DNA from: a virus
Strand: one strand, 5' to 3'
Virus record (IMG/VR): IMGVR_UViG_3300021356_000075
Span: 1-34,156 of that record
DNA: 34,156 bases
Below are positions 1,801 to 32,760 of the stretch, piece by piece. Made by a program: the position numbers and the translations under genes. The notes beneath the pieces were generated by a model that was not told where the DNA came from, made no database searches, and saw only the letters and a program-made list of their open reading frames with translations. Position 1 is the first letter of the stretch. Each line of letters starts with the position of its first letter.

Positions 1801-2050
1801 GCCCGGCAAAATTCCCCGTTTCCCTCTCTCGCGTATATAAGAGAACTGGAAACACGTATGGGCTTACCCCATATGGAAATATGGAAATTACTATATATAT
1901 ACTATATATACTAGTAAAAACACTGTGTTTCGTGATGGCAGTAGTTTCCCTCCGAGCAGGGAAATTACTCGGAAACTACTCCCGTCAAATTCCGTTTTGC
2001 CAGTAGTTTCCCAGTAAATTCCCCCCAAATTCCCGCCAAATTCCCTGTCC
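1801..2050. other. Candidate replication origin or control region
   Basis: Non-coding stretch directly after the replicase stop. The motif AGTAGTTTCC occurs at 1940-1949 and 2002-2011, and its inverse at 1971-1980, so the three copies start exactly 31 bp apart. AAATTCC occurs at 2016, 2027 and 2038, exactly 11 bp apart, with further copies near 1809 and 1987. An AT-rich tract at 1871-1920 (two overlapping ATATGGAAAT copies, then TATATA runs) could be an unwinding element. Phased motifs beside an AT-rich tract and a replicase gene are what an iteron-type origin looks like; a multi-site operator is the alternative. Confidence 0.5.
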
Positions 2051-2058
2051 GATTTTTC

Positions 2059-4248
2059 TCAATCAATCGCCCGAAATTTCTGTGTGGGCCTTCCACCGGC
2101 TGCACTCGGGGCCACTTCTTCGGCCTCAATGGACTTTTCTGTGAGGAGATGTTGGAGGACTTGCTGCCGATCTCGCGGGTTGAGTCGCCGCGTTTTCCGC
2201 GTCAATGTGGACAGCGTCATCCACCCACGATGGTCCTGTAATTTTCGCAGAACGTGCTGACAATCCTTGTGGAAGTCGCTCTGTGAGATGTGCCTGTCTG
2301 CTTGCCAGAGCATCTTTCTGGTGATCCAGTTGTTCAGCCGGATTGCCCTGTCTACATCGTCCAGCGTGATCTCTGGCCAGTCCTCGCCGCAGAATCTGGA
2401 ACAGGCCAGCAGCATGGCCAGCTTCGTGGTCTTCTCCGCCACTCTGGACCAGATTGCCGCCACCACCCTGTCCTCTGTCTTCCGCTTGTTGCTGATGCTC
2501 AGTGAGTGGTCTTTCAGCCGCTTGTATGCCCCCGGAGCCCAGTCGATCAGCTTTGGATGGCCTCCACCGCCGTCCAGATTGCCTCCATGAGTCTGGAGCT
2601 GTGCCCACGCCTTGGCCGCGTTTAGGATCGAATCTGGAAGCCTGTCGTCTGCCTCTGGGTCTTGGTAGTCCACGTAATCATCCACCTCGAACACAAGGAA
2701 GCGGCCAATCAGCCCGTTCTTCATGTTCTCCTCTGTGACTGCCTCCCAGAAGCCCTCGGGAACACTGGTCCCGTAGATCACGCAATGAGGATATGACAGC
2801 GTTTTGACCTTCTGCCGATCCCCGTAAGCGTCCATCGGGCAGAATGCTTTATTTGCCGAGCTGTAGATCGTCATTAGCCTGGCTGAGATCTGGGCCAGAT
2901 GTGGGGCTGATTTGTGCTGCATGGCATGGACGAGATGTGCGATTTCGTCAATCTGGAACAGCGTGCACCATTCCGCATCCATCTGACTGATGATGCCCGC
3001 ATGGCTTCCGATGGCCTCTGGGCCGATCCTGTTGGCCAGCCCACACTCTGCCAACACCCGCGTGTTGAGTTGCCTGCTGTGGTCCTTCCCGGCCCCGGAG
3101 GGAGCCAGCCCGAGAACGTAGAGATTGGTCCTTGCTCGCTTGCTGGTTTGCACCTTGCCCCCGGTCAGCGTGGACATCAGGGCAAGCGCTCCACCCAATG
3201 CCAATTCGGGGAGCGGATAGTGGGCTGTCCGCAAATTGAAGTCGATCAGATCCCCGATCAATCCGGGGATTTGCTGCAGATCATCAGGGAATCCCCCTGG
3301 ATCGGCCAGCTTCTCCGCTGGTGTGTCTGGTTTCGTGTCAGGGGCCACTTCTGCTGTGGTCCCGAGAATCCCCGAGAGATCCACACCGGGATCTGGCTGC
3401 ACGCTCACCACCTCGCTGGCCTTGTCAGCTGGTGGCGTTCCCCGGTCTTTGCCGTTCCGGACTGCCCGCTGCAGTTCCTCCTCCGGCAGTGGTGGGGAGT
3501 TGCCAGCATTCCACCCGCTCACCAGCTGGCTAACTGCTGCCATGCTCAGCCGCTCGCCCATGTCTCCCACGAGGGCCCAGAGATGCCCGGCAAGCTGGAA
3601 GGCTGCCGTCTGTCGCCCCCCCTCGGCCACATTGTCACAGTTGGCCACGTAATTGGCCGCCCGATCCCACAGGGAGCCACCAGAGCCCGCTGGGAGCCTC
3701 TGGGGTTGCGCCTGTGGTTTCGGCTGCTCCGCTGGCCACAATCGCCCACAGAGATCCCTGAGAGCTTCTGAACCGTCCCCGATGTCTGCCAAACCCTGCC
3801 AAACGTTACCAGTCATAGCCCAGAATCGGCCTTGATCGTAGATCTCAACTTGGCACTTCCCCGCCCCCATCTTTGCCACGCATCTGGAGCCCTCTGGCTT
3901 CCGGCCTCGCGTGATCAGCTTGAGCCCGGTCCCGCTGGGGGATATTTCGACATAGGCCACACCGCGGAAGGCCTCCACAATCTCCGCTGCCCAGTCTGCC
4001 AGCTGTCCATCTGCATCCAGACAGCCGTCTAGGTCAATTCCGCAGTAAGGGTAATTGATCGCCAGAGCCATCCCTGTGTAAAGATGCTCCTGCTTGCGTG
4101 CCATCTCGAAGGATGTCCACGCCGTTGGATCTGTGCTACTGCCCCTGCCTCCTCCGGTCCTGTAGGGGACTTTGGTCCCGTTCTCTGAAAGCCAGAGCAT
4201 CCAGATCTTCTTGTCCCGTAATTCTGCGGGGATGTCTTCCAGTGCCAT
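2059..4248 (-). CDS. Primase-polymerase fused to DUF3987-type ATPase (phage replicase)
   Basis: A 729-residue replication protein. The N-terminal 150 residues look like an archaeo-eukaryotic-type primase (PrimPol / NrS-1 polymerase class): GIDLDG at 70-75 gives the metal-binding Asp72 and Asp74, SPSGTGLK follows at 103-110, and VEIYDQGR at 134-141. After a helical linker comes a DUF3987-type ATPase with a Walker A-like APSGAGKD at 382-389 and Walker B FQIDE at 431-435. The C-terminus looks like a winged helix (LRKLQDHRGWMTLSTLTRKTR). Together these suggest primer synthesis coupled to helicase loading or unwinding. The ATG follows the shared GGAGTAGGCA leader. It lies next to the SF2 helicase gene and between two non-coding repeat blocks. 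Confidence 0.85.
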   Translation of the reverse strand: MALEDIPAELRDKKIWMLWLSENGTKVPYRTGGGRGSSTDPTAWTSFEMARKQEHLYTGMALAINYPYCGIDLDGCLDADGQLADWAAEIVEAFRGVAYVEISPSGTGLKLITRGRKPEGSRCVAKMGAGKCQVEIYDQGRFWAMTGNVWQGLADIGDGSEALRDLCGRLWPAEQPKPQAQPQRLPAGSGGSLWDRAANYVANCDNVAEGGRQTAAFQLAGHLWALVGDMGERLSMAAVSQLVSGWNAGNSPPLPEEELQRAVRNGKDRGTPPADKASEVVSVQPDPGVDLSGILGTTAEVAPDTKPDTPAEKLADPGGFPDDLQQIPGLIGDLIDFNLRTAHYPLPELALGGALALMSTLTGGKVQTSKRARTNLYVLGLAPSGAGKDHSRQLNTRVLAECGLANRIGPEAIGSHAGIISQMDAEWCTLFQIDEIAHLVHAMQHKSAPHLAQISARLMTIYSSANKAFCPMDAYGDRQKVKTLSYPHCVIYGTSVPEGFWEAVTEENMKNGLIGRFLVFEVDDYVDYQDPEADDRLPDSILNAAKAWAQLQTHGGNLDGGGGHPKLIDWAPGAYKRLKDHSLSISNKRKTEDRVVAAIWSRVAEKTTKLAMLLACSRFCGEDWPEITLDDVDRAIRLNNWITRKMLWQADRHISQSDFHKDCQHVLRKLQDHRGWMTLSTLTRKTRRLNPRDRQQVLQHLLTEKSIEAEEVAPSAAGGRPTQKFRAID

Positions 4249-4470: not shown

Positions 4471-4480
4471 TTGTCAGTTC

Positions 4481-4530
4481 CCTGTTGAACCCTGTTGAAC
4501 CGTGTTGAACCGTGTTGAACCGTGTTGAAC
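4481..4530. repeat. Five tandem 10-bp repeats
   Basis: Five head-to-tail copies of C(C/G)TGTTGAAC at 4481, 4491, 4501, 4511 and 4521, with variation only at the second base. The 10-bp period is not a multiple of three and the stretch is non-coding. It abuts a second array of different sequence. Confidence 0.95.
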
Positions 4531-4531
4531 C

Positions 4532-4577
4532 GGGATATCCCGGAGATATCCCGGAGATATCCCAAAGATATCCCGCC
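4532..4577. repeat. Four tandem 11-bp repeats
   Basis: GATATCCC occurs at 4534, 4545, 4556 and 4567, exactly 11 bp apart, with spacer GGA in the first two units and AAA in the third. The first copy is part of the palindrome GGGATATCCC. It follows the 10-bp array with no gap and ends just before the helicase stop codon. Roughly one helical turn per unit in both arrays suggests cooperative protein binding on one DNA face, as at iteron origins or multi-site operators. Confidence 0.9.
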
Positions 4578-4578
4578 C

Positions 4579-6291
4579 TCAAAACGGGACGCCATCGTCC
4601 CAGAATGCCTCTGCTGACTCGCTCTCGATCAGTTCTGTCGGTCGCGGATCGGTGAAGTCTGCATTGATCACCCGCCTCCACTTACCTTCCTTCTGGGTGT
4701 GGATACTGGCCGGAATCCTAACCGCGCCCCGGTCGATCATGTCCAGAGCATCTCGAACACTGGCAGGGCATTTGACCAGAGATCGCCGCTCCCACCACTT
4801 TTCGGCCTTGCTGCGTGCAAATCCCGTGTGGTTGAAACAGATCCACTCTTTCACCTCCTGCTGCTCCAGATTGCCATCCGCCCCGGGTCGGTGTATCCAA
4901 TACGTACAGCACAGCGTGGTGGGAGCGTCCGGGCTGTTTTTCTTTTCATGCTCCCTGTACCACACATCATCCACCAGCCACTCCACTGGCCCCTCCTCGC
5001 CCACCAGCTGGCTGGCAGTGTCTGCCGTTGCCTGGTGCCTGATGGCGTCTGGAATGTCTGCCCCGCATTCAGGGCAGAACGCAAACCGGGAAGGAATTCC
5101 GATCCCGCACTGCGGGCAGTCGATCTCCACTGGCCCTTGGCTCTCGCGTGGTGCTGTCTCTTCTTGGACCTGGCTCTGCGATCGTCCGCCAGTGTCCCGA
5201 CCATAGTCCGGAGAATCCAGTGATCCGTGGCGCTCGATGTTTCCGCCGAAGTCCAGAATGAGACAGTCCTGCTTCTCTGGTGAAGTTCGGAGCCCTCGCC
5301 CGACAATCTGGCAGAAGAGCCCCGGTGACATCGTGGCCCGGAGCACTGCCACGCAATCCACGCGGGGAGCATCGAAGCCCGTTGTGAGGACATCCACGTT
5401 CACCAGCCACCGCAATGACCCGCTGCGGAAGTCTCCCAGATGCTGCTTCCGCTCCTCCCTGTCTGTCTGGCCTGTGATCACCTCCACACGGTCTGTGACG
5501 ATGCCCCGGAGCGTCTCGGCTACGTGCTCAGCGTGATCCACACCGCTGCAGAACACGATGACGGACCGCCGATCGTGACAGCTGGCCACGATTTCCTGAC
5601 AAGCCGCATCCACGATGCTGGCCTGATCGAACGCCGCCTCCATCTGTCTAGCCACGAACTCACCGCCACGAATGGCCACGCTCGAGATATCAACCGGCCT
5701 CTCTGTTGGCTGATTCGTCAGCGGACAGAGAAACCCCTGCCCGATCAGATCCCCGGTGAACGCTTCGTAACAGATCAGGCCGAAAAGCCTGTCAGGGCCT
5801 GCCAGAAGTCCTTCCCCGGTTCGGTATGGCGTAGCAGTCAGCCCCACGCATCGCAGCTTCGGATTGACTTGGCTCAGATCTGTCAGGAATCGGTTGTACA
5901 TGGAGTCATCCATGTCATTGATCAAATGAGCCTCGTCAATGATGACCAGCTCACGCCGCCCGAATACCAGAGCCTTCCGGTGAACGCTCTGGATGCCCGC
6001 GCAGATCACATCTGACTCTGTGTCGTACCTGCGGAGCCCTGCCGAATACAACCCGGAGCTGATGCCCGGACAGAGCAGTTTGATCTTCTCGTGATTCTGC
6101 TCCAGCAGTTCCTTGCGATGTGCCAGGACCATCACTCTGGCCCCGTACTCCCTCGCCTGCTGGATCATCATGGCAATCACCAGAGACTTCCCCGCTCCTG
6201 TTGGCAGGACCACCAGAGGATTCTGGTCTGTGTCCCGCAATGCGTCCCAGATGGCCGCGTGTGATTCTTCTTGGTATTCCCTCGGCTTCAT
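4579..6291 (-). CDS. SF2 (DEAH-box) DNA helicase with zinc finger
   Basis: A 570-residue superfamily 2 helicase. Numbered from MKPREYQEE: motif I LPTGAGKS at 29-36, motif II DEAH at 119-122, motif III TAT at 152-154, and motif VI QIVGRGLRT at 328-336. A CPQC (392-395) and CPEC (406-409) zinc ribbon links to a C-terminal domain of unknown role. The protein ends ESAEAFWDDGVPF, very like the acidic Pro-Phe tip of bacterial SSB. This start is chosen over an ATG eleven codons upstream because the GGAGTAGGCA leader lies directly before it. Probable role: unwinding or remodelling at forks, with the adjacent replicase, DUF669 protein and RecA-like ATPase. Confidence 0.92.
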   Translation of the reverse strand: MKPREYQEESHAAIWDALRDTDQNPLVVLPTGAGKSLVIAMMIQQAREYGARVMVLAHRKELLEQNHEKIKLLCPGISSGLYSAGLRRYDTESDVICAGIQSVHRKALVFGRRELVIIDEAHLINDMDDSMYNRFLTDLSQVNPKLRCVGLTATPYRTGEGLLAGPDRLFGLICYEAFTGDLIGQGFLCPLTNQPTERPVDISSVAIRGGEFVARQMEAAFDQASIVDAACQEIVASCHDRRSVIVFCSGVDHAEHVAETLRGIVTDRVEVITGQTDREERKQHLGDFRSGSLRWLVNVDVLTTGFDAPRVDCVAVLRATMSPGLFCQIVGRGLRTSPEKQDCLILDFGGNIERHGSLDSPDYGRDTGGRSQSQVQEETAPRESQGPVEIDCPQCGIGIPSRFAFCPECGADIPDAIRHQATADTASQLVGEEGPVEWLVDDVWYREHEKKNSPDAPTTLCCTYWIHRPGADGNLEQQEVKEWICFNHTGFARSKAEKWWERRSLVKCPASVRDALDMIDRGAVRIPASIHTQKEGKWRRVINADFTDPRPTELIESESAEAFWDDGVPF

Positions 6292-6293
6292 GG

Positions 6294-6303
6294 TGCCTAC
6301 TCC
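6294..6303 (-). promoter_or_regulatory. Shared translation leader GGAGTAGGCA (helicase)
   Basis: Exact copy of the leader two bases before the helicase ATG. It decides the start of that gene. Confidence 0.75.
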
Positions 6304-6306
6304 ATG

Positions 6307-6336
6307 GAAAAGGCCCCCGGCCACAGCCGGAGGCCA
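6307..6336 (-). terminator. Intrinsic terminator between DUF669 and helicase genes
   Basis: On the minus strand GGCCTCCGGC pairs with GCCGGGGGCC around a TGTG loop, and four T follow. The T run is short, so it may terminate only partly or protect the upstream transcript. It could lower helicase expression relative to the single-strand-annealing genes. Confidence 0.6.
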
Positions 6337-6372: not shown

Positions 6373-6837
6373 TCACCACGGACTGGCGGGCTTCTGCTGT
6401 GCAGGAGCAGCAAACGCCTCCGCGATCATATGACCGCCCGCTTCCGCTGGCCCGTAGCCCTTCACTTCGTTTTGGACCTGCCCCTTGTACTCCCGACATC
6501 CGATGCGGACTGTGAGGGTTCGCCCGTGCAGATCTGAGGAGTCTTTCGGGCTCAGCACGTTGACAGCCCTGCAGATGCTGGAGAGCGTCGCCTTTGCGAT
6601 TGCCACAGCCTGCTCGCTGGGGTTCTTCAGATTCAAATTATCGAACACCACCCGCCCAGCATGGGTGGGGCCTTCAATTTTGATCTGCAGCTTAAGGTAC
6701 TCGCCATCGCCTGCGTTGGTCGTTTTCTGTTCGCTGTGGACGATCACAGCCTGATAACTGCCTGCCGGCAGAGCCTCGTAGCCCTCGCCCGCTGGCTCCA
6801 CCTTGGTGGCGTCAAACCCTTCAAGATTCATCCCCAT
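6373..6837 (-). CDS. DUF669-like protein, probable single-strand DNA binding partner
   Basis: A 154-residue protein beginning MGMNLEGFDATKVEPAGEGY. LPAGSYQAVIVHSEQK followed by GDGEYLKLQIKI is the pattern of DUF669, a family found next to phage recombination ATPases and predicted to bind single-stranded DNA. Later segments are GRVVFDNLNLKNPSEQAVAI and TLTVRIGCREYKGQVQNEVK. The C-terminus is AAPAQQKPASPW, not an SSB-like acidic tip. The ATG is preceded by GGAGTAGGCA. It follows the ATPase gene after five bases, matching the common Sak4-DUF669 pairing. Expected role: coating replication or recombination intermediates. Confidence 0.8.
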   Translation of the reverse strand: MGMNLEGFDATKVEPAGEGYEALPAGSYQAVIVHSEQKTTNAGDGEYLKLQIKIEGPTHAGRVVFDNLNLKNPSEQAVAIAKATLSSICRAVNVLSPKDSSDLHGRTLTVRIGCREYKGQVQNEVKGYGPAEAGGHMIAEAFAAPAQQKPASPW

Positions 6838-6839
6838 GA

Positions 6840-6849
6840 TGCCTACTCC
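6840..6849 (-). promoter_or_regulatory. Shared translation leader GGAGTAGGCA (DUF669 gene)
   Basis: Exact copy two bases before the ATG of the DUF669 gene. It overlaps the end of the upstream ATPase cistron. Confidence 0.75.
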
Positions 6850-7613
6850 TTAACCTTGCTCGAACCATCAACAACAATGCCGGAGATATTCCCGGCCATA
6901 TGTTGAGCATACGCCGCCCAACTGAATCCGATCTCTGCTGGCATGGCCAGCCTGTTCTTTGCCAGTGCTGTGGCAGTCTCTGAGGTCTTCACGATTCGCT
7001 CAGTCCCACCCACTGCAATGGTCCGCTCCCGGCCAAATCCTTCGTCCTCCTTGCGTGTGTGGACCTTGTAGTGGCAGAACAGCAATTCGTCCACCCACTC
7101 CTGGAGTAAAGCCGCGCTGGCCTCATGGAGTGCTGGCGTGTACCTGTCATAGGAATCACCAGCAGGATCAGCAAACTTTGAGACTTTGGAATGGGCCAGA
7201 AGCACGATATTCAAGCCCCGCTCATTCCGCAGATAATCCAATCGCTTGAGGATCTGCTGCCACTCCCCCAGAGCCTGCTTGTACCCGTTGCCGTAGGGGA
7301 TATCGCCCACCGTAGCCTTGCCGTTCTTCTGCGCTACTCGCTGGTGAATGATCCGCTCCAGCCAATCGGCTGAGTCGATGGCCAGCGTGGTGAAGTCGTG
7401 TTCCTGCTGGGCCAGCCAGAGGAAAGCGTCTTCGATCTCGTCCATGGTGGTCAGGTGCTGGGTCTTGCTCGTGGCAATGTCAGCCAGCCCGTCCTCCAGA
7501 TCCATCATCAGCACGTTGGGGGCCTGAGCCGCCCACGTACTCTTACCGATCCCATGCACGCCGTATAACAAGCACCGGCGTGGCGTCTGCTTCTTCCCAG
7601 TCAAAATCTTCAT
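6843..7613 (-). CDS. Sak4-like / AAA_24 recombination ATPase
   Basis: A 256-residue RecA-fold ATPase. Walker A GVHGIGKST lies at 18-26, Walker B-like FTTLAIDSADWLE around 74-86, and a third strand motif in GLNIVLLAHSKV. This layout, with the conserved GDSYDRYTPAL region, matches the phage nucleotide-binding (AAA_24, Sak4-type) proteins that help single-strand annealing or strand exchange with an SSB partner. That partner is probably the DUF669 protein immediately downstream. The ATG is preceded by GAGGGTAGGC, a variant of the shared leader. The first 71 bases overlap the preceding gene in another frame. Confidence 0.88.
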   Translation of the reverse strand: MKILTGKKQTPRRCLLYGVHGIGKSTWAAQAPNVLMMDLEDGLADIATSKTQHLTTMDEIEDAFLWLAQQEHDFTTLAIDSADWLERIIHQRVAQKNGKATVGDIPYGNGYKQALGEWQQILKRLDYLRNERGLNIVLLAHSKVSKFADPAGDSYDRYTPALHEASAALLQEWVDELLFCHYKVHTRKEDEGFGRERTIAVGGTERIVKTSETATALAKNRLAMPAEIGFSWAAYAQHMAGNISGIVVDGSSKVKE

Positions 7614-9538: not shown

Positions 9539-10228
9539 TCACCATCCGATCAGGCCGCCGATACCGTTGCCAATGAGGTCAATCAGATCGCCGAGACTTG
9601 GCTCGGGGACTGTGCTGTACTCGTGGTACTCAATGTGCTCGATCACCCCGTCAGCTGTGCCGCTGCCGGAAAAATCGAATCGCAAACCCTCCAGCCCGTT
9701 TGGCAAATCGTGGCGGAATGTTTGTAGGTTGCTCTGATTGGTAATGTGCTCGTACAGCAGTTGGCCGTTGACGCTCCAAAGTGCATATTCATGATCGTTT
9801 CGCAACGTGATTTCTAGGAAACCGGGCTGCAGGTTGATGTCTCGCTCGGCGAACATCTCTACCATACCCCGGCTGTCGTTGCCGCCAAACTCGACTGCAC
9901 CGTCCCGGTGATGCTGAATCCAATCGACTGTAACAAACTCGCTTATGTCATCAGGCACAGCACCGGGGATACGTTTGATCCCGTAGCGGAACCCACGTGA
10001 CTCATACTGTCGCTCAAGATGATTGTTGTGAAATCCATCTGCGTTCAGCCAAACCGCCCCACCACCACCTAGATCCGTCAGGTCATACTGGATCAAATCG
10101 CCTTTGCCGTCAGTTGGCGTTGCCACAAACACGCCTCCCGCCGTGTAATCGGTTGACATTACAATCACACCCGCCTCCGCACCACCCGACAGCACTGCCA
10201 GCACTGCCAATACGTTCCACCATTTCAT
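9539..10228 (-). CDS. Exported protein with PEP-CTERM-like C-terminus (229 aa)
   Basis: Starts MKWWNVLAVLAVLSGGAEAG, a typical signal peptide with a likely cleavage after AEA. The mature part is beta-rich and begins VIVMSTDYTAGGVFVATP, with many Gly, Asn and Asp residues, like a jelly-roll domain. The C-terminus is EYSTVPEPSLGDLIDLIGNG and ends IGGLIGW. VPEPS followed by a hydrophobic helix resembles PEP-CTERM sorting signals, though the usual Arg/Lys tail is missing. Bacterial PEP-CTERM proteins are exported and processed by exosortase. The ATG overlaps the preceding stop (ATGA) and GGAGC lies upstream. Role in the phage unknown; envelope modification is possible. Confidence 0.75.
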   Translation of the reverse strand: MKWWNVLAVLAVLSGGAEAGVIVMSTDYTAGGVFVATPTDGKGDLIQYDLTDLGGGGAVWLNADGFHNNHLERQYESRGFRYGIKRIPGAVPDDISEFVTVDWIQHHRDGAVEFGGNDSRGMVEMFAERDINLQPGFLEITLRNDHEYALWSVNGQLLYEHITNQSNLQTFRHDLPNGLEGLRFDFSGSGTADGVIEHIEYHEYSTVPEPSLGDLIDLIGNGIGGLIGW

Positions 10229-10371
10229 TTCAAAAGCTCCGCATATAAAGAAAGGAAAACCACCCAAAACACCAGAACCACTGCCGCCCCAAACATTGCT
10301 CCGAGTGCCGCCCCTTGCAGGAAAGCAATGCAAACACGCTTGAAGAGCAATAACACGAGACGCCGTTTCAC
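10225..10371 (-). CDS. Small membrane protein (48 aa)
   Basis: GTG start with GAGGA eight bases upstream. The product has a basic N-terminus (MKRRLVLLLFKR), an amphipathic IAFLQGAALGAMFG, and a strong membrane segment GAAVVLVFWVVFLSLY followed by AELLK. The positive N-terminus predicts it stays cytoplasmic. Its stop overlaps the start of the exported VPEP-type protein. It could be a small holin, pinholin-like, or a membrane partner of that protein. No homologue is recognised. Confidence 0.65.
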   Translation of the reverse strand: MKRRLVLLLFKRVCIAFLQGAALGAMFGAAVVLVFWVVFLSLYAELLK

Positions 10372-31574: not shown

Positions 31575-31975
31575 CAGTCCTCCAGACTGTCCACCACCTG
31601 CTGGATCTGCTGCAATGTCCGGCCACCAACCCAGACCTTTGTCGGCTTCTTCTGGCCCTTCTTGACCAGCCAGAACGTAGGAACCCGGCTGATGGCCTCC
31701 ACTCGCTGGCCCTCGATCACTCTGGGCCTTCGTGTCTCTGGGGCCTTGTCGATGTCCACCAGCTCCACCGGGATCTCCTTCCGGACTTTTGGCAAGTGGT
31801 CCCGCTTCCACGCTTTGCACGGTGCACACCAGTCCGCCGTGAACATCACAAGCCGCCATTCTGGCTCAGCCTTCGCCGCCGCTTTCGGTTGCTCCAACAC
31901 GATCACCGTGAATTCATCGGTTGCCAGCTGCGTCAGCGTGATGGCTGTCACGAGCGCCCAAACTTTCCAGATCAT
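31574..31975 (-). CDS. Exported thioredoxin-like protein
   Basis: A 133-residue thioredoxin fold protein with an N-terminal signal or anchor (MIWKVWALVTAITLTQLATD). The active site is WCAPC at 49-53 in FTADWCAPCKAW, and the conserved cis-proline is Pro99 in SRVPTFWLV. It should act in the periplasm or at the membrane in thiol-disulfide exchange. It lies between a papain-like cysteine peptidase and the terminase, both coupled by overlaps. A natural guess is that it keeps the peptidase's Cys or another phage protein reduced, or alters host envelope disulfides. Unusual cargo beside a terminase. Confidence 0.88.
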   Translation of the reverse strand: MIWKVWALVTAITLTQLATDEFTVIVLEQPKAAAKAEPEWRLVMFTADWCAPCKAWKRDHLPKVRKEIPVELVDIDKAPETRRPRVIEGQRVEAISRVPTFWLVKKGQKKPTKVWVGGRTLQQIQQVVDSLED

Positions 31976-32760
31976 GTCATGCTTCCTGAGTAAGGCCCCA
32001 CTAAGTCATCCGCCAGCATCTTCGAGCCCCTGACGATGCCAAAACCGTAGTCTCCCCAGTTGCCCCAGCTGTTGCGAAACCGGATGGCCACTTCACCATC
32101 CAGCCAGATGGCCTCGCACAGTGTGACTTCATGGCCCCACCAATTGTATCCCGCCGCCAGTGGAATCCCGCGAAGCAACAGGCTGACCATCTGGGACAGG
32201 TTGCGTGGCTGGCATTCTACCCACTCCCGGACCATGTAATTCTTGGCCAGCTCCCGGTTGCTGTCATTGTAGTACTTCTGATCTCGTGAATTGGCCGGCC
32301 AGCTGCCGACCGGAACCGCTCCGCGGTCTGCCAGCCATCGAATGGCATCGCGTCCCCAGCCGCCGCGATTGGCGAACCGCTTGATCGGTGCCGCCACACT
32401 TGCGGGAGACAGCCGGACTAGTGGCTGGTTCTGTCGCATCCGGACCAGCTCCAGACAGTGGACTGGGGCATTGGCCCAGCAGTAGTTCGTGTTTCCTTGG
32501 TTCAACGGGGCCAGTTGCTTGTGTCGAATGAAGTCACTGATCTGGCTCTGCTGCTGCTCACGCTCCTCAATCATGCCCTGCCAGTCCGTCTCCGGGATGT
32601 ACAGGTCCTCGGAGAATCGCCCGGCAAACTGCCCGTAAGCAAACCCTTCAGCGTCTGGGAGTCGCTCGGACAGGTCCAGGCCGCCATATCCTCCTTTTGG
32701 TATCAATGCCTTATCGTCGTCCAGAATTAGCTCGTATTGGCTCACTCGGCTGCTGCTCAC
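31972..32760 (-). CDS. Papain-like (C1) cysteine peptidase
   Basis: A 262-residue member of the papain clan. LNQGNTNYCWANA at 86-98 gives the oxyanion Gln88 and nucleophile Cys94. GYNWWGHEVTL supplies His210, and FRNSWGNWGDYGFG (228-241) supplies Asn230, so the triad is complete. A 75-residue N-terminal segment (PKGGYGGLDLSERLPDAEGF) could be a propeptide. There is no signal peptide. The GTG start has GGAGG seven bases upstream and overlaps the preceding stop. Possible roles are virion maturation, cleavage of host surface proteins, or lysis; the genome has no recognisable peptidoglycan hydrolase. Confidence 0.88.
   Translation of the reverse strand: MSSSRVSQYELILDDDKALIPKGGYGGLDLSERLPDAEGFAYGQFAGRFSEDLYIPETDWQGMIEEREQQQSQISDFIRHKQLAPLNQGNTNYCWANAPVHCLELVRMRQNQPLVRLSPASVAAPIKRFANRGGWGRDAIRWLADRGAVPVGSWPANSRDQKYYNDSNRELAKNYMVREWVECQPRNLSQMVSLLLRGIPLAAGYNWWGHEVTLCEAIWLDGEVAIRFRNSWGNWGDYGFGIVRGSKMLADDLVGPYSGSMT

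Follow-up and report, generated by a model that had tools for sequence, protein, structure and literature searches.

The intergenic block at positions 1871 to 2045 of the window, as the whole analyzed stretch of DNA is called here (IMG/VR viral record IMGVR_UViG_3300021356_000075, 34,156 bases, possibly incomplete), probably represents an iteron-type replication origin served by the 729-aa product of the neighboring gene, which would recognize, melt, and prime it; the probability of this reading is estimated at roughly 0.8. The first-pass annotation of this DNA had suggested either a replication origin or a complex operator. The present analysis supports that proposal and favors the origin, because the block lies 3' of a gene for a primase-helicase with a predicted winged helix, includes an AT tract, and recurs in many phages. 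The conservation of the spacing, combined with the concerted change of the repeat letters across the copies, makes the start of viral DNA replication the most likely function of this block.

The array consists of ∼10 units of 11 bp that are found in both orientations and flank the AT-richest 100 bp of the window. It had initially been described as two separate motif sets: three copies of AGTAGTTTCC with a 31-bp spacing, the middle one inverted, and three copies of AAATTCC with an exact 11-bp spacing. Both sets are real. The former motif is found at 1940-1949 (plus strand), 1971-1980 (minus strand), and 2002-2011 (plus strand), exactly 31 bp from center to center, and the latter at 2016, 2027, and 2038, with further copies at 1987 and 1809. 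Their separation was an undercount, as both are variants of a single ∼10-copy family of 11-bp units with the consensus AGTRRWTTCCC, located at 1940, 1984, 2002, 2013, 2024, and 2035 in the plus orientation and at 1882, 1959, and 1970 in the minus orientation. Similarly, the exact 11-bp and 31-bp spacings stand, but the latter had to be rejected as an independent helical period, as it equals 11 + 20 in the relatives.

The repeats had been judged hard to explain by chance, in agreement with the counts obtained here. With up to one mismatch, AGTAGTTTCC has 5 sites in 34 kb, all of them inside the block, whereas 100 shuffles, under the same mismatch rule, averaged 0.57 sites and never exceeded 3. 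AAATTCC has 10 sites in the window versus 2.5 expected, a number attained in none of the shuffles. In its repeat content, the 300-bp block ranks second among 279 windows (z = 14.3 versus dinucleotide shuffles), and this clustering of short-repeat copies in noncoding DNA is a property of iteron-type origins. The first rank belongs to an unrelated tandem insert at 4480-4560 (minus strand), which consists of four 11-bp GGGATATCTCC-like units followed by five 10-bp GGTTCAACAC units and is situated in an intergenic gap, with the SF2 helicase gene on one side and a 71-aa open reading frame (ORF) on the other. This stronger array is an ∼90-bp insertion that is missing from five close relatives, and it was rejected as an origin candidate for that reason.

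The TATATA runs previously noticed beside the motifs form an AT tract (Table 1) within the AT-richest 100 bp of the window, which start at 1834 and are 70% AT; such an AT-rich element adjoining the repeats is another property of iteron-type origins. The GC skew of the window falls monotonically because all the likely genes are on one strand, and it is uninformative with regard to the origin.

The search with the C-terminal domain of the 729-aa protein recovered a related contig, referred to as L125, that encodes a primase with 63 to 65% identity and includes 189 bases 3' of its stop codon. On the gene strand, with the arrowheads showing the orientation, the units are located at >40 >51 >69 <82 <93 >113 <170 <178 bp from the stop codon in the window and at >29 >40 >57 <71 <82 >102 <158 <166 bp in L125. 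The steps of 11, 31, 31, 20, and 8 bp are identical in the two, and the AT tract is spanned by a step of 57 bp in the window versus 56 bp in L125; the 8-bp step of the distal inverted units is also kept in L145 and L149. The unit GGAAACTACT of the window is changed to GGAAGAAAGT in nearly all copies in L125, including those outside the hairpin described below, and the DNA flanking the units is poorly conserved. Geometry that is under selection and sites that change in a concerted fashion are the signature expected for the binding sites of one protein, and the maintenance of the repeat geometry despite the altered units likewise fits an iteron-type origin. The first-pass annotation had named the loss of spacing in relatives as evidence against its proposal; the exact spacing in L125 is the opposite of such a loss. 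The predicted recognition helices of the two proteins differ only by Q695R, Q696D, and V697I, so the change in the outer half of the unit lacks a detailed account. In the near-identical relatives L002, L003, L004, L005, and L006, all five contigs end before the block, inside the primase gene, perhaps because the repeats interrupted the assembly.

Table 1. Candidate origin region and adjacent replication genes of the window (L125 is the related contig discussed in the text)
Feature	Position	Strand	Remark
Candidate replication origin core: two opposed 11-bp iteron sets and AT tract	1871..2045		Lattice kept in L125
Distal inverted units AGTAATTTCC and CCATATTTCC, 8-bp step, past the AT tract	1875..1892	-	
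AT tract TACTATATATATACTATATATACTA (TATATA), candidate DNA unwinding element	1889..1913		Inside the AT-richest 100 bp
Unit AGTAGTTTCCC, adjoins the AT tract	1940..1950	+	Kept at +102 in L125
Two inverted 11-bp units, AGTAGTTTCCG and AGTAATTTCCC	1959..1980	-	
Degenerate unit GTCAAATTCCG, spacer between the arms	1984..1994	+	L125 counterpart at +57
Four 11-bp units, head-to-tail: AGTAGTTTCCC AGTAAATTCCC CCCAAATTCCC GCCAAATTCCC	2002..2045	+	
AEP primase-polymerase/PriCT_1/DUF3987 helicase-like protein with C-terminal winged helix, 729 aa, candidate initiator	2059..4248	-	
C-terminal winged-helix domain (predicted), residues 656-729, candidate iteron reader	2062..2283	-	
DUF3987 part, predicted MCM-like AAA+ core, residues 326-652	2293..3273	-	VIA, Foldseek
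AEP prim-pol domain (predicted fold), residues 1-174	3727..4248	-	VIA Z 23 to NrS-1 primase-polymerase
SF2 (ResIII/DEAD) helicase, replication/recombination module	4579..6324	-	
DUF669 protein, PHROG single-strand DNA binding protein, replication/recombination module	6373..6837	-	
AAA_24 ATPase, probably Sak4-like recombinase, replication/recombination module	6843..7613	-	

Positions 1959-1980 and 2002-2023 constitute a 22-bp inverted repeat with 91% complementarity, a hairpin potential that exists because the units stand opposed. The hairpin folds far better than shuffled sequences (z = -5.3 in the window and -6.2 in L125) and places a long potential stem-loop 3' of a PrimPol-helicase gene, similarly to the origin of pRN1, which depends on a stem-loop 3' of orf904 (PMC4234260). 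This structure, rather than the units, could be what is read, as has been proposed for pRN1 and for the Bordetella phage BIP-1. However, the units at 1940-1950 and 1883-1892, which are not part of the hairpin arms, change together with the others in L125, a change that pairing alone would not necessitate, and some relatives (L089 and L097) carry only or mainly direct repeats 3' of the gene. A stem-loop origin is accordingly quite improbable.

The search with three aligned primases yielded 65 loci, about 25 of them at 46 to 50% identity, and revealed different arrays in the same place. A module that can be written as < 10/11 < 19-21 > AT tract < is common to L148, L149, and L138, in which the units are GGAAAGAAGT, GAAAGAAGT, and TGACGGAAG; the 11 + 20 (±1) bp spacing is kept in distant relatives with different unit sequences. 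The gap 3' of the primase gene contains CCGAAAACA in Achromobacter phage Axy20, TTCTAATG in Sphingomonas phage Birtae, ATAAGG-type repeats in Escherichia coli phage Halfdan, ACCTGTCC in L026, AATAGGAT in L072, TGGTGTCAC in L156, and TGAAATTCA in L182, with still other repeats elsewhere. Most of these distant arrays are opposed sets beside an AT tract. In some relatives, repeats of 9 to 12 bp are replaced by direct repeats with a longer pitch, such as those of 35 bp at 8367-8500 in L097 and of 27 to 29 bp at 8373-8560 in L041. L162 (5443-5700) carries a tandem duplication of the entire array region, with the second copy ∼150 bp further on, which results in two apparent origin-like blocks.

The association was quantified in the 300 bp 3' of the primase stop codon, with z ≥ 6 taken as a strong array. 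Such arrays were found in 27% of 67 distant nonredundant relatives; the rate was 2.8% among all other windows (Mann-Whitney p = 7e-7) and 3.1% among low-coding windows (p = 2e-7). A strong array was present in 44% of 27 further nonredundant relatives versus 1.4% of control windows (p = 1e-7). All these p-values are only indicative because the loci are related. Of 90 loci, 40 have their AT-richest 100 bp between -50 and +350 relative to the stop codon, versus 3.7 expected. For three complete phages, a genome-wide comparison places the AT-richest spot in the gap 3' of the primase gene. The detrended GC-skew minimum of Halfdan (30370) lies inside the array gap. The origin reading also has weak points. 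In Birtae, the GC-skew extremum is about 1.4 kb from the gap, and in Axy20 it falls in another part of the genome. Many relatives have no detectable array directly 3' of the primase gene, where it is absent or faint in L025, L131, L132, L153, and L140. In L025 (about 48 to 50% identical), an AT tract and two tandem 11-bp TTTGAAACGAG units are found ∼1.2 kb further, after small genes.

Location in an intergenic block is normal for an operator, and two weak promoter-like sites lie within the AT tract of the window. The units might bind a phage regulator of the leftward genes (1673-8) or of the primase transcript, with the AT tract serving as the promoter, and an origin could be autoregulatory as well. 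Such a complex operator is nevertheless unlikely: the genes past the array differ among distant phages and the array stays with the primase gene, no dedicated repressor gene was recognized adjoining it, and its coincidence with the AT-richest spot of the genome suggests melting. An even more remote alternative is a phage attachment site (attP) with the units as arm-type sites of a tyrosine integrase. A degenerate DNA pattern for two tandem units had four matches, in L009, L010, L011, and L012. In L012 (2976-2998), 11-bp tandem AAGTGGTTTCC repeats, which resemble the unit of the window, are found where an integrase-like ORF has its 3' end. Three AAGTAAATTCC repeats of the same kind lie between genes of the tail/lysis region in L010 (10380-10435), a contig with an integrase-like ORF. 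Both could be integrase arm sites, and the matches in L009 and L011 look like chance occurrences in coding DNA. None of the four is placed comparably to the array of the window. The attP reading, which is very improbable, was rejected: no match to the Phage_integrase domain (PF00589) was found in the window's record, which is possibly incomplete, and in the relatives it is the primase gene, and not one for an integrase, that precedes the array. Iteron arrays also occur at partition sites, but a centromere-like function is hardly credible here, given that no ParA- or ParB-like gene was recognized among the searched proteins and that the site is linked to the primase.

The candidate initiator of the favored replication origin is encoded, as had been noted from the outset, directly upstream of the block: only 13 bases separate the end of the PrimPol-DUF3987 gene from the array, and the first unit lies less than 20 bp from the stop codon. 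The position directly 3' of an initiator-helicase-like gene is the one seen in the SaPI and SCCmec systems. Database searches with the 729-aa protein retrieved the PriCT_1 and DUF3987 domains in Pfam and DNA primase in PHROGs. Its AlphaFold model, built with 51 natural sequences, has a mean pLDDT of 86.8. The predicted prim-pol domain, of the archaeo-eukaryotic primase (AEP) type, superimposes on the NrS-1 structure over 168 to 169 residues, and a profile search matched the NrS-1 primase-polymerase with an E value of about 1e-51. The DUF3987 part, annotated in Pfam as a domain of unknown function, is predicted to adopt an MCM-like AAA+ core fold, as its model resembles MCM helicases with VIA Z scores of 17 to 19 over ∼265 residues (rmsd mostly 3.5 to 4) and a Foldseek E value of 5e-5. 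The model of the C-terminal domain comprises three helices and two strands (pLDDT of 88 when folded alone) and resembles winged-helix DNA-binding proteins with a Z score of about 10 and a Foldseek E value of only about 0.02. The combination of an AAA+ helicase core with a C-terminal DNA-binding domain, seen here in predicted structures only, is another feature of the SaPI/SCCmec type. In the profile search, which bears on a possible sequence homology of the helicase to SaPI Rep or Cch2, relatives with solved structures were retrieved for the primase part only; the matches include PDB entry 7ola, presumably a SaPI primase-helicase, on which no conclusion here rests. According to predictions by Kazlauskas et al. 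(PMC5862659), DUF3987 constitutes a novel family of helicases, and in such proteins the origin is read by the winged helix. Upstream of the primase gene, the window encodes an SF2 helicase, a DUF669 single-strand binding protein, an AAA_24 ATPase, and RusA. Searches with the neighboring 93-aa and HNH proteins as queries retrieved no useful relatives.

Two other regions of the window deserve mention. The 264-aa ORF at 9539-10333 (minus strand), with no Pfam or PHROG match, contains a signal peptide-like stretch and, near its end, a VPEPS motif reminiscent of the host PEP-CTERM proteins. In the structural gene region, 31972-32760 (minus strand), a borderline match to papain-family cysteine peptidases scored 20.7 bits, which equals the cutoff.

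The origin activity that can be inferred for the block would involve binding by the 729-aa protein, loading of its oligomers, melting, and priming. The C-terminal winged helix would bind the 11-bp units, one unit per helical turn, and the MCM-like AAA+ domain would assemble into two oligomers on the opposed sets of units. These oligomers could melt the AT tract between and beside the unit sets, and the prim-pol domain would begin DNA synthesis on the exposed strands. A more tentative and rather less probable proposal is that a widespread, as yet undescribed class of phage origins combines a fixed lattice and exchangeable repeats with one protein that recognizes, opens, and primes the DNA, and with two MCM-like hexamers on opposed iterons. 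If true, this two-hexamer class would be a bacterial-virus counterpart of MCM double-hexamer loading, fused to its own primase-polymerase.

Iteron origins located beside the initiator gene are of an already known kind. What seems to be new is the pairing of a prim-pol/MCM-like/winged-helix protein from a phage with an 11-bp lattice that retains its geometry while the repeat sequence is replaced. No description of iterons 3' of the PrimPol-DUF3987 phage genes was found in the open-access papers searched, although they may still have been described, and the open-access papers found gave neither the origin location nor the origin-binding protein of these phages. Such phages are common: matches exist in 333 phage records, in many cases via the primase part only. 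The exact coordinates, the predicted reader domain, and the natural variants with the same lattice and different units make the origin question directly testable, also in Halfdan, a phage that infects E. coli K-12. For DUF3987, the predicted MCM-like AAA+ core offers a structural reading.

The proposed origin may work similarly to those of SaPI, SCCmec, and phage P4, and the inferred mechanism also resembles the pRN1 model (PMC4234260). In the SaPI and SCCmec systems, the origin immediately follows the gene for the initiator helicase on its 3' side, and the C-terminal domain of this helicase reads it (PMC7581432). SaPI likewise carries multiple short repeats 3' of this gene, and two hexamers have been proposed to assemble there (PMC7581432). 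In contrast to SaPI, the protein from the window fuses the primase, AAA+, and winged-helix parts in one tailed-phage polypeptide, DUF3987 is a different Pfam family, and the 11-bp units form a conserved 11/31/31 lattice. The SCCmec system of Cch2 and CCPol-MP includes an MCM-like initiator helicase and direct repeats downstream of the operon, and the C-terminal domain of Cch2 binds the putative origin (PMC7581432); however, its primase/polymerase is a separate protein, there are three 5-nt AAGTG iterons, and the element is not a phage. The ORF904 protein of the Sulfolobus plasmid pRN1 also combines an AEP prim-pol, a hexameric helicase, and a C-terminal winged helix, with the origin 3' of its gene (PMC4234260), but that origin is a 100-nt stem-loop without iterons, and the helicase belongs to SF3. 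The alpha protein of phage P4 is a fused primase-helicase whose winged helix binds origin repeats (summarized in PMC4234260); its primase is of the TOPRIM type and not AEP. The primase-polymerase of Nitratiruptor phage NrS-1 has a homologous AEP domain, whereas the gap 3' of its gene amounts to only a few bases and the primase recognizes the template motif TTTGGTTA (PMC8718748). Finally, the archaeal and eukaryotic MCM helicases share with the DUF3987 part the predicted AAA+ core followed by a winged helix, at 13 to 18% identity; in the phage protein, the prim-pol domain precedes the AAA+ core in place of the MCM N-terminal domain.
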